Part shown: in pieces, positions 12,064 to 40,588 of the stretch
How the letters are laid out: each line of letters begins with the position of its first letter
Position numbering within the stretch: position 1 is the stretch's first letter
From: a virus
Strand: one strand, 5' to 3'
DNA length: 54,565 bases
IMG/VR virus record: IMGVR_UViG_3300010388_000206
Span: 1 to 54,565 of that record
Made by a program: the position numbers and the translations under genes
The notes under the pieces: generated by a model
The model's database searches: none
Told to the model about the DNA's origin: nothing
The model's input: the letters and a program-made list of their open reading frames with translations, nothing else

Positions 12064-12092
12064 TTGACAGTTCCTTTCGAATCACCTATAGC
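12064..12092 (+). promoter_or_regulatory. Sigma70-type early promoter with conserved leader
   Basis: TTGACA at 12064-12069 is followed, after exactly 17 bases, by TATAGC at 12087-12092. Four bases later the leader TCAACGAAACGAAAGG begins, closely matching the leader of the promoters at 48.1, 49.0 and 50.0 kb. The -35 box is inside a 16-bp inverted repeat whose other arm covers the ribosome site of the next gene. Confidence 0.75.
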
Positions 12093-12121
12093 AGGATCAA
12101 CGAAACGAAAGGAACTGTCAA
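12064..12121. repeat. 16-bp perfect inverted repeat spanning promoter and ribosome site
   Basis: The left arm (12064-12079, starting TTGACAGTTCC) and right arm (12106-12121, ending GGAACTGTCAA) are exact reverse complements, separated by 26 bases. The right arm contains the AAGGAA ribosome site, and the start codon follows at once at 12122. The left arm contains the -35 box and lies upstream of the expected transcription start. Confidence 0.9.
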
Positions 12122-12400
12122 ATGACCATCGAAATTCGCACCTCGGATTGCTCGTTTGTTAAATCAAACAAGGCTCTTTATGCTTCTGCACAAATGGAAG
12201 GGCTTGGTATTTCTGGACGGGGATATCCTAAGCAACTTTTTGTTACTTCTGATGTTACTGGTCGTTCTGTAAAGTTCGTTGCTATCAAAGAAGGTCATCC
12301 TCGTTTTGATTATGATTTCTGGGACGGTGAGATGGCTATCTATGAGCCTGTGATCGCTCTTCCCAATGTTGACATTCTGGTTATTAGTTATGGTATGTGA
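12122..12400 (+). CDS. Hypothetical protein, 92 aa
   Basis: The ATG directly follows the right arm of a 16-bp inverted repeat carrying its ribosome site. The product is a mixed alpha/beta protein rich in aromatic residues (FDYDFWDGEMAIYEP) with no recognised motif. Its own promoter at 12064 suggests separately controlled expression. It overlaps the next gene by 11 bases. Confidence 0.75.
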   Translation: MTIEIRTSDCSFVKSNKALYASAQMEGLGISGRGYPKQLFVTSDVTGRSVKFVAIKEGHPRFDYDFWDGEMAIYEPVIALPNVDILVISYGM

Positions 12401-20842: not shown

Positions 20843-20868
20843 AAACCCTGCTTCGGTGGGGTTTTTTC
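20843..20868 (+). terminator. Intrinsic terminator closing the glycan operon
   Basis: A nine-pair stem (AAACCCTGC with GTGGGGTTT, two wobble pairs) is capped by a TTCG tetraloop and followed by a T-run. This is a textbook rho-independent terminator. It is 4 bases after the stop codon at 20838 and directly precedes a late promoter. Confidence 0.92.
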
Positions 20869-20871
20869 TTG

Positions 20872-20879
20872 TATAAATA
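20872..20879 (+). promoter_or_regulatory. T4-type late promoter opening the virion block
   Basis: TATAAATA is a full match to the T4 late -10 element. It lies right after the terminator at 20843-20868 and 26 bases before the start of the first gene of the late block. No -35 box is seen, as expected for gp55-type late promoters. Confidence 0.8.
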
Positions 20880-20904: not shown

Positions 20905-21324
20905 ATGGCTAAATTTGTTAAACCAAAATTTGAAGATCAAAGCAAGAGCTTTATGGCATTAGCCAATAAATTGTTTGCCGAAATCAGCCAACAAGATATT
21001 AAAAGAAAGCTAATCGATCAGATGATCGAAGACTTGAAGAAAAGATATACTACAAACGCTGTTCAAGACCTTAAGCTGCCCCTATGGAAATCTCTTCAAG
21101 GAACCGATTCTTGGGCTGCTGAGAAGATGACAGTGATTGAAAGAAATATAAAACGACAGGAAGTGTCAAATTTTAAACAGACAATGGTCCAGTTGCTTGA
21201 AGAGCAACCAGTAGGAACTCCTGTTATTATGATGCAGCAAAATGTTGGTATGTTGATTTCGGGTGAGAATACTTTGCTGGCATGTAGACTTTTAAACATT
21301 CAACCAAAAGTAGTAATAATCTGA
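20905..21324 (+). CDS. Hypothetical late protein, 139 aa
   Basis: This is the first gene behind a late promoter, with AGGAG as ribosome site. The protein is basic, largely helical in the first 110 residues, and ends in a more hydrophobic C-terminus (VIMMQQNVGMLISGENTLLACRLLN). It overlaps the next gene by one base. It may be a virion or head-internal protein; no family is recognised. Confidence 0.75.
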   Translation: MAKFVKPKFEDQSKSFMALANKLFAEISQQDIKRKLIDQMIEDLKKRYTTNAVQDLKLPLWKSLQGTDSWAAEKMTVIERNIKRQEVSNFKQTMVQLLEEQPVGTPVIMMQQNVGMLISGENTLLACRLLNIQPKVVII

Positions 21325-22638: not shown

Positions 22639-22655
22639 GTCAAATACTGAAATAT

Positions 22656-22663
22656 TATAAATA
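22656..22663 (+). promoter_or_regulatory. T4-type late promoter for the candidate small RNA
   Basis: TATAAATA is a full match to the late element. The expected transcription start (about 22670) falls exactly at the base of a 24-bp stem, with no start codon in reach. The nearest gene starts 219 bases further on. Confidence 0.78.
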
Positions 22664-22670
22664 AAGGGTG

Positions 22671-22866
22671 GTTAAGGCTAAGGCAAACACCCATTTAAAC
22701 AGATAAGCCCAAGGGAAACTCTGATGGATAGAACAAAAGTAACACCCCACAACCAAATTTCTTCTCCCAAGCTAGATGCCGTTGTCGGAGAAATGGGTGT
22801 TTCCTTAGTCTTAATCAACGGAATTAAATAAGAGGGCTTCTTGTATTCACACAAGGGGCTTTTTTT
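22671..22866 (+). ncRNA. Candidate late small RNA with a 24-bp closing stem
   Basis: The arms 22672-22696 and 22791-22814 pair over 24 base pairs with one bulged C and one G-U pair, enclosing 94 bases. A smaller CTCC/GGAG stem (22764-22767 with 22787-22790) abuts the main stem. A late promoter sits just before the left arm, and an intrinsic terminator (22833-22866) follows the right arm. No open frame with a ribosome site is present. Together these define a possible free-standing RNA of about 195 bases. A MITE-like insertion with terminal inverted repeats is an alternative reading. Confidence 0.6.
22833..22866 (+). terminator. Intrinsic terminator after the small RNA
   Basis: The stem GGGCTTCTTGT with ACAAGGGGCTT (some G-U pairs) has a 6-base loop and is followed by a run of T. 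It is 15 bases before the next gene's start codon at 22882, so read-through or partial termination must feed that gene unless another promoter exists. Confidence 0.8.
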
Positions 22867-22881
22867 GTATAAGAGGAAAAT

Positions 22882-24300
22882 ATGAGCACACCTGAAAGTA
22901 TTAAGAACCAAGCATATAGTGCCGCACGTAAACTCGTGAGAAATCGTCTCGCTGAGAATGCTGGTGCTGAATATGAAAAGCTTGGTCTGATTGAGAAGAT
23001 GCACATTGACAAAGCCGTTGATAAAAAGGTTGACAAGATCAAAGAAATTGCTTTAAAACTAATTCCAAAAATTGTCGAAAGTAAGAAGCCTTCAGATAAG
23101 AGCGGTTCAAACGAAGAACTGAATAACAGGTTTGCGTCAAAGATCAAAACTCCCGTAAAGAAAGATGAAAAGAAGAGTGGTGGTAAAAGTCCACACATTC
23201 AAATGCATAATTCTTTCGGTGAAGAAGTTGCACTTGATAGCGCAGTCTACAAGGCCATTGTCAAGAAGTCTGAAAAGTCAGGCGTAGATATCGACACTCT
23301 TGGCGAAGTATATAATCGTGGTATGAGTGTATGGTATGAAGACACAAACGTATCACAACAGCAATATGCATTTGCTCGTGTAAACTCTTTCATCAATAAG
23401 GGCAAGACATATTTCAACGAAGATAATGATCTTGCAGAAGCCACATATCAAGGCAAGAAAGTTCCTCTGAATAAGCCAATGGCTGGTGACGTTAAGAAGT
23501 CAAAGGTCTATGTTGATCCTGATGGTGATGGCAAGGCACAGAAGGTAAACTTTGGTGACAAGACACTCAGTATCAAAAAGGACAATCCTGCTCGTAAGAA
23601 GTCATATTGTGCTCGTTCTGGTGGTCAAGGAAATCTAAACGACAAGACTTCAGCTAACTACTGGTCACGTAAGGCATGGAATTGTGAAGAGGTTGATAGG
23701 ACCAAGCCAGAGAATCGTGAAGAGGGTACTGACAACCTAGTCAAGATTTACAAGAAAGATACTCCCGGTCAGAACCTAGACGAATCATTCAACATGGCAT
23801 TCGACTATCAGGGAAAGCCAACACTGGCACCTACAGCACACGAACTTATGATGAAAACCCAAGGTGGTTTTGCACATCACAATGACGTACAGGACGTTAT
23901 GAACGTCACATCAATCAAGGAACAGATTGAGAAAGCTTTCCAAGCTACTATTCTTGAAGAAGATAAGAATGAGCTAGCTATCTCTATCGACAACCTAATT
24001 GATATGGTCAATGAAGCATTTACGACTATCGCAAACATCAAGTCTTCAAACATCGAACGTGATGCATGGTCACAGGCGCAGATTCTAAAGCTTGAACGCT
24101 ATATTGAATCAGTTGCTGCCTATATTGAAAACATGGATGAAACTGTAAGAAGCGGCGAGACACATGGTGTTATCGTTCCTGCACACACAATTGTCAGTCA
24201 GAAGACAGGGCAATCAATCACTATACCTGCTAAGTCAAAGAAGGTAAAGAAGAATGATGTTGTTCTTCATCCCCATGACAATCCATTTGATGGTAAATGA
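22882..24300 (+). CDS. Probable virion or internal head protein, 472 aa
   Basis: The protein is Lys/Glu-rich and mostly helical. At about residues 235-270 it has KKSYCARSGGQGNLN then NYWSRKAWNC, a short Cys-Ala-Arg...Trp-Asn-Cys motif that recurs in phage head-associated proteins. Earlier it has VYVDPDGDGKAQK, a possible calcium-type loop. The C-terminus (about 350-440) forms long helices. The AGAGGAAA ribosome site is clear. The role is unknown beyond probable packaging in the virion. Confidence 0.75.
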   Translation: MSTPESIKNQAYSAARKLVRNRLAENAGAEYEKLGLIEKMHIDKAVDKKVDKIKEIALKLIPKIVESKKPSDKSGSNEELNNRFASKIKTPVKKDEKKSGGKSPHIQMHNSFGEEVALDSAVYKAIVKKSEKSGVDIDTLGEVYNRGMSVWYEDTNVSQQQYAFARVNSFINKGKTYFNEDNDLAEATYQGKKVPLNKPMAGDVKKSKVYVDPDGDGKAQKVNFGDKTLSIKKDNPARKKSYCARSGGQGNLNDKTSANYWSRKAWNCEEVDRTKPENREEGTDNLVKIYKKDTPGQNLDESFNMAFDYQGKPTLAPTAHELMMKTQGGFAHHNDVQDVMNVTSIKEQIEKAFQATILEEDKNELAISIDNLIDMVNEAFTTIANIKSSNIERDAWSQAQILKLERYIESVAAYIENMDETVRSGETHGVIVPAHTIVSQKTGQSITIPAKSKKVKKNDVVLHPHDNPFDGK

Positions 24301-27296: not shown

Positions 27297-27304
27297 TATA
27301 AATA
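27297..27304 (+). promoter_or_regulatory. T4-type late promoter
   Basis: TATAAATA is a full match, 33 bases upstream of the ATG at 27338. The gene that follows has its own strong terminator, so promoter and terminator frame a single-gene unit, as expected for an abundant structural protein. Confidence 0.8.
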
Positions 27305-40499: not shown

Positions 40500-40504
40500 T
40501 CGTA

Positions 40505-40522
40505 TATACCCTATAGGGTATA
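40505..40522. repeat. 18-bp perfect palindrome, first of a pair
   Basis: TATACCCTATAGGGTATA is a perfect palindrome. A second copy follows with its centre 27 bases downstream. No T-run follows, so terminator function is unlikely; a pair of dimer-binding operators, or RNA hairpins with TATA loops, fits better. Confidence 0.75.
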
Positions 40523-40530
40523 AACACAGA

Positions 40531-40550
40531 ATATACCCTATAGGGTATAT
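40531..40550. repeat. 20-bp perfect palindrome, second of a pair
   Basis: This copy extends the first by one pair on each side (ATATACCCTATAGGGTATAT). It lies 39 bases before the ATG at 40589. Between it and that gene the sequence TGTTAAATATG occurs twice, so the start region is partly duplicated. Confidence 0.75.
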
Positions 40551-40588
40551 AACAGTAGTGGTGTTAAATATGAAAGGTGATGTTAAAT

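Follow-up and report, generated by a model that had tools for sequence, protein, structure and literature searches.

Two long ORFs leave a gap of 243 nt (22639-22881) in the window, i.e., the whole 54,565-nt stretch of viral DNA analysed here, and the question raised by this locus is whether the gap specifies a free non-coding RNA or the 5′ end of a late mRNA. An earlier note favoured the former, namely an RNA of approximately 195 nt with its own late promoter, a long stem, and a terminator, and with no credible reading frame in between. The gap and the three signals were confirmed upon re-analysis; the absence of a reading frame was not.

Layout of the leader, the short ORF, and the terminator

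All features of the element are located on the plus strand. The T4-type late promoter TATAAATA is an exact match at 22656-22663, and transcription is expected to start at approximately 22669-22671, as placed from a promoter-to-start distance of about one helical turn (PMC2988020). The other two plus-strand TATAAATA sites of the window (20872-20879 and 27297-27304) lie upstream of ORFs at 20905 and 27338, at a distance of 25-33 bases, and the site at 20872-20879 directly follows a terminator-like hairpin (20843-20864).

The long-range stem is formed by a 5′ arm (22670-22696) and a 3′ arm, referred to as the anti-leader (22791-22816), with 24-25 pairs including G-U pairs, one bulged C, and a duplex energy of -39.3 kcal/mol. 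The 211-nt region as a whole folds at -64.9 kcal/mol (z = -4.46), which none of 200 shuffles equalled. Briefly, the 5′ arm overlaps hairpin 1 (HP1; GGU UAAG GC(UAAG)GC AAAC ACC, 22670-22691), so that the two are alternative pairings, and is followed by hairpin 2 (HP2; CAGA UAAG CC(CAAG)GG AAAC UCUG, 22700-22723). HP1 was assigned from alignment A1 and covariation, and HP2 from the alignment, covariation, and the covariance model R1, which matches the window at 22667-22726 with 74.3 bits. The lower stem of HP1 is weaker in the window's clade than in other clades. HP2 contains the Shine-Dalgarno sequence (SD) AAGGG (22711-22715), 8 nt before the AUG that starts directly after HP2.

A short ORF of 35 codons, MDRTKVTPHNQISSPKLDAVVGEMGVSLVLINGIK, runs from this ATG at 22724 to 22831, and its stop codon TAA (22829-22831) abuts the intrinsic terminator (22832-22866), which consists of a hairpin (22832-22863) followed by a U tract. 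The same start, an open frame of 32-48 codons, and the stop at the terminator are found in 17 distinct sequences, and the terminator hairpin is present in all 17. The 3′ arm is located within this ORF, as is a possible third hairpin (22762-22792; UUCUCC at 22762-22767 with GGAGAA at 22787-22792), the pairing of which is retained in 17/17 sequences and is nearly invariant, and hence has no support from covariation. Downstream of the terminator, a gene of 472 aa (22882-24300) contains a DUF5824 domain (PF19141; E = 1.3e-7), and a scan for the late-promoter octamer found none between the terminator and this gene.

The twin-hairpin leader family and the genes behind it

Searches with the flanking genes provided relatives with leaders 73-93% identical, a 27-base leader motif matched 82 IMG/VR contigs, and a pattern describing only the architecture matched at least 119 IMG/VR contigs; a version of the pattern forbidding A after HP2 matched 38 contigs, 32 of which possess both lower stems (approximately 32 further contigs). 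A late promoter is located just 5′ of most matched leaders. Side-by-side comparison revealed two hairpins of one design, comprising a lower stem, a UNAG/AAWC internal loop, two pairs, and a YNNG-type loop; the tetraloops are mostly of the YNMG type, HP2 ends at or just before the ATG and either contains the ribosome-binding site or stands immediately 5′ of it, the SD lying outside HP2 in L190-L215. An additional short hairpin separates HP1 from the late promoter in L233, L242, L132, and L150 (e.g., GCAAGAACAGTTCTTGC in L242). The lower stem of HP1 in L190, L192, and L205 reaches 1-2 bases from the promoter octamer, nearer than the expected transcription start, so that transcription may start elsewhere in these leaders, or the source transcript may be another.

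Among 40 distinct leaders, two-sided changes occur at 11 of the 14 pairs, with 103 double-changed cells vs 37 (sd 7) in shuffles and a covariation score of 0.440 vs 0.190; none of 500 shuffles reached either value, where the sequences are related and significance derives from simple shuffles and permutations that ignore kinship. RNAalifold recovers both hairpins unprompted. Columns preset by the search patterns, i.e., the loop-side bases and, for the earliest scans, the ATG, prove nothing; the covariation resides in positions that the patterns left free, namely the lower stems and, in HP2, the outer apical pair. The loop and internal-loop bases form the most conserved part of the leader, which the patterns partly preset, and the folding energy of the twin-hairpin leader alone is no better than that of shuffles. 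Selection on the leader structure is well supported by comparison of sequences, as is its putative role as a cis-acting leader. Two other structural readings were rejected: kissing of the HP1 and HP2 loops (GGC/GCC), because the apical pair of HP2 becomes AC/GU or UC/GA while HP1 is unchanged, and a hammerhead or other known ribozyme, because the CUGAUG/GAAAC likeness in HP2 is lost in other members and Rfam yields no match.

Assemblies of bacteria and archaea were also scanned and yielded coincidental matches only; six such matches (Azonexus and others) fall within coding regions. BLAST of the leader against named phages gave no significant match. Most single-hairpin matches are attributable to chance and were retained only where a late promoter is present. 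Among cultured phages, the covariance model, the E-values of which are rough owing to a short calibration, matches a single hairpin directly before the SD of a cytidyltransferase gene in Stenotrophomonas phage DLP_6. In Sinorhizobium phages phiM12 and phiN3, inspection by eye identified a hairpin of this kind immediately 5′ of the SD of the related gene, the model score of phiM12 being near background. A weak model match in cyanophage S-ShM2 was discarded because of its position, which is not before the start of the related gene, and the element is absent from HTVC008M, Melnitz, and C48C1, phages with related genes.

The downstream genes tested encode DUF5824 in most cases, and otherwise related late domains or no match. 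Where the downstream gene is long, it encodes DUF5824, in many cases together with a cytidylyltransferase-like domain, or else DUF5661, DUF6321, or DUF6267, and a few such genes have no clear Pfam match; a full-text search for DUF5824, among few literature searches of openly licensed papers, returned no paper. In L192 and L211, the gene behind the twin-hairpin leader is of the DUF6267 type, with a ligase-like KxDG motif noted by eye, and differs from the usual DUF5824 type. In most relatives, the leader enters the long late gene from the same AUG and without a terminator, whereas a short ORF and a terminator are inserted between leader and gene in the window's clade, a minority arrangement. 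In 16 of the 17 short-ORF members, the distance from the ORF stop to the first base of the terminator hairpin is -14 to +4 nt, the next start codon follows 18-26 nt past the terminator where found, and the gene behind the terminator is of the DUF5824 type in L123, L132, and L040, below the cut-off in L242, and without match in L150. Between the terminator and the next gene of these members, no late promoter was found in a check of the late-promoter octamer only. The leader is therefore assigned to the DUF5824 gene, since this gene lies 18-26 nt past the terminator and has no late promoter of its own.

The fixed position of the element between the promoter and the start codon of one gene family, together with its covariation-supported secondary structure, agrees with a cis-acting structured leader. 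A free-standing small RNA should have no translated frame and its own terminator throughout the family, whereas long ORFs proceed from the same AUG in most members. Accordingly, the earlier proposal is retained in one part, i.e., a structured late RNA with conserved pairing and compensatory changes, and abandoned in the other, since the RNA is a 5′ leader with a ribosome-binding site (RBS) and an ORF. A MITE-like insert, also considered there, is not supported: the site upstream of one gene family is fixed, substitutions preserve the structure, and the element is single-copy in the window contig as well as in most of the remaining records searched (two records contain a second, weak match).

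A long-range arm within coding sequence

The long stem extends beyond the window's clade. In each short-ORF member, the leader pairs with the end of its own ORF at -26 to -39 kcal/mol, and in most long-ORF members a complement of HP1 plus spacer is found 40-160 nt into the coding region, at up to -50.7 kcal/mol (duplex z-scores were based on mononucleotide shuffles). Among 30 members, pairing between a leader and its own arm averages -36.2 kcal/mol, vs -26.4 kcal/mol for cross-pairs, a difference reached by 0 of 20000 permutations. The compensatory changes that the earlier note proposed to seek among related phages are present in this helix, with 7 double changes vs 2.2 expected in the 17 short-ORF members, a set that leaves out L131 as a member of the long-ORF group. 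Comparison thus shows the long stem to be a second, coevolving layer, in which HP1 can pair alternatively with a coding-region arm in most lineages. Furthermore, L127, L130, L136, L141, L154, L157, and L128 have no arm within 3 kb and nevertheless keep the hairpins, which identifies HP1 as a hairpin in its own right; it covaries in clades lacking the arm (UUGUAG/CUACAA in L130, GUGCAG/CUGUAC in L136, and GAGAGCAG/CUGCUCUC in L192).

The residues encoded by the arm differ among long-ORF members (VVLT, VDLT, FAVAS, FAIAK, and VVVDP), and the short ORFs translate identical arm nucleotides in two frames, to LVLI and LSLN. Because the encoded residues differ and the frames shift, it is the RNA that is kept at the arm. 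This bears on the highly improbable reading that the short peptide itself is the product, i.e., a small protein made late from a structured mRNA: L233 and L242 read GTCGGAGAAATGGG in another frame, and the N- and C-terminal parts of the peptide lack coding-type constraint, although its SSPKLDxVVGE block accumulates 154 synonymous vs 75 replacement single-step pairwise differences in the close clade (neutral synonymous share 0.28), in a weak test whose pairwise counts are non-independent and whose conserved block overlaps the invariant possible third hairpin (22762-22792). A likeness of the peptide to the N-terminus of the long proteins, noted by eye, also speaks for it.

Retention of the arm nucleotides across frame shifts, which suggests that RNA structure outranks the peptide there, is likewise in accordance with a free regulatory or assembly RNA of approximately 195 nt that acts in trans and in which the ORF is incidental, as is the unit from promoter to terminator in the window's clade. 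Such an RNA is nonetheless unlikely, given that most of the family continues into the long gene without a terminator, that SD and AUG are conserved, and that the leader stays beside one gene family.

A small but appreciable chance is assigned to an element for mRNA stability or processing, in which the 5′ structure would protect the late mRNA or RNase III would cut the 24-bp duplex. HP1 is located at the expected 5′ end and is sometimes very stable (8 pairs with a UNCG-type loop in L192), and the long-range duplex reaches about -50 kcal/mol; however, a protector requires neither conserved internal loops nor a second matching hairpin, and it is the loop and internal-loop bases, in part fixed by the patterns, that are conserved most.

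Proposed control and relation to known RNA elements

The RNA is probably a cis-acting 5′ control leader of a DUF5824-type late gene, which in the window's clade would resemble a translation-coupled attenuator; this assignment is derived from comparative sequence analysis. As for the trigger and the exact output, we infer them from the architecture. To judge from their repeated design and conserved loops, the twin hairpins would be recognised by a small ligand or by a dimeric protein, and this binding would gate initiation at the AUG that follows HP2. The arm would compete for HP1 and either reset the switch or mark untranslated mRNA for folding and decay. Simple masking of the RBS by the arm was rejected because the predicted accessibility of the RBS is unchanged upon adding the arm (0.53 vs 0.51). 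In the window's clade, the geometry suggests that a ribosome at the stop codon of the short ORF would open the arm and hinder the terminator, such that polymerase reads into the DUF5824 gene; when the short ORF is not translated, the RNA would close and terminate, and the approximately 195-nt RNA of the earlier note could be this attenuated product. An ORF stop adjoining the terminator and a gene without its own late promoter are consistent with attenuation (16 of 17 members; octamer only checked), whereas the arm (22791-22816) and the terminator (22832-22863) do not overlap and hence form no mutually exclusive terminator/antiterminator, so that the element is not a classical attenuator. More broadly, and tentatively, the family may represent a new class of phage RNA switch, in which tandem aptamer-like 5′ hairpins and a coevolving anti-aptamer in the coding sequence would control nucleotidyltransferase/DUF5824 late proteins via a ligand or their own product.

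In Rfam, the window has no match at the gathering threshold and nothing relevant around the element at E up to 10, and eight further loci likewise gave nothing relevant at E up to 1; the leader is accordingly not assigned to pan, mini-ykkC, Downstream-peptide, manA, wcaG, glnA, or any other family. The pan and mini-ykkC (guanidine-II) motifs share with it short hairpins repeated in tandem 5′ of a start codon, and unpaired bases that are conserved (PMC2864571), but their sequences are different, the genes behind them serve bacterial metabolism and are not phage late genes, and no downstream anti-leader arm is described for them in that report. The Downstream-peptide motif (RF01704) is similarly a structured leader directly 5′ of a short ORF in marine sequences, and yfr6, formerly considered a noncoding RNA, contains a short ORF with such a leader (PMC2864571); this motif shares structure with glnA, whereas the phage leader does not and has no Rfam match.

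The putRNAs of phage HK022, with two stem-loops in approximately 70 nt and putL just past its promoter (PMC9378689), raise the alternative of an antiterminator, in which the twin hairpins would bind the polymerase during elongation and allow it to pass the terminator found downstream in the window. This is quite improbable: put is early and acts on polymerase, whereas the present leader follows late promoters, its HP2 abuts the start codon or SD, and a terminator is missing ahead of the gene in most members.

In hok-type mRNAs, a far complementary strand can displace a 5′ hairpin, and in leader-peptide attenuators a short ORF ends at a terminator. The analogy of the phage leader with both is functional only, since it has neither a toxin-like peptide nor a mutually exclusive terminator/antiterminator pair. 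Set against the RNA-family libraries searched, the predicted twin-hairpin leader is an undescribed RNA element. Given its wide occurrence among uncultured phages of the environment, its clean covariation, and its absence from Rfam, it would constitute a new regulatory RNA family. Its second layer is unusual, in that a complementary arm in protein-coding sequence is preserved while the amino acids differ, implying that the N-terminus of a viral protein is shaped by RNA pairing. T4-type late genes are usually described at the promoter level; the family further offers a testable case in which they would be controlled by translation or attenuation, and the cultured phages with a single hairpin (Stenotrophomonas DLP_6 and Sinorhizobium phiM12/phiN3) provide an entry point at the bench.

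Two further repeats were noted elsewhere in the window. A perfect 16-base inverted repeat with a 26-base gap (12064-12121) is located just 5′ of an ORF at 12122, and a perfect 20-base inverted repeat with a 9-base gap (40503-40551), the arms of which are each nearly palindromic (TATATACCCTATAGGGTATA), is possibly a protein-binding site or a replication feature.
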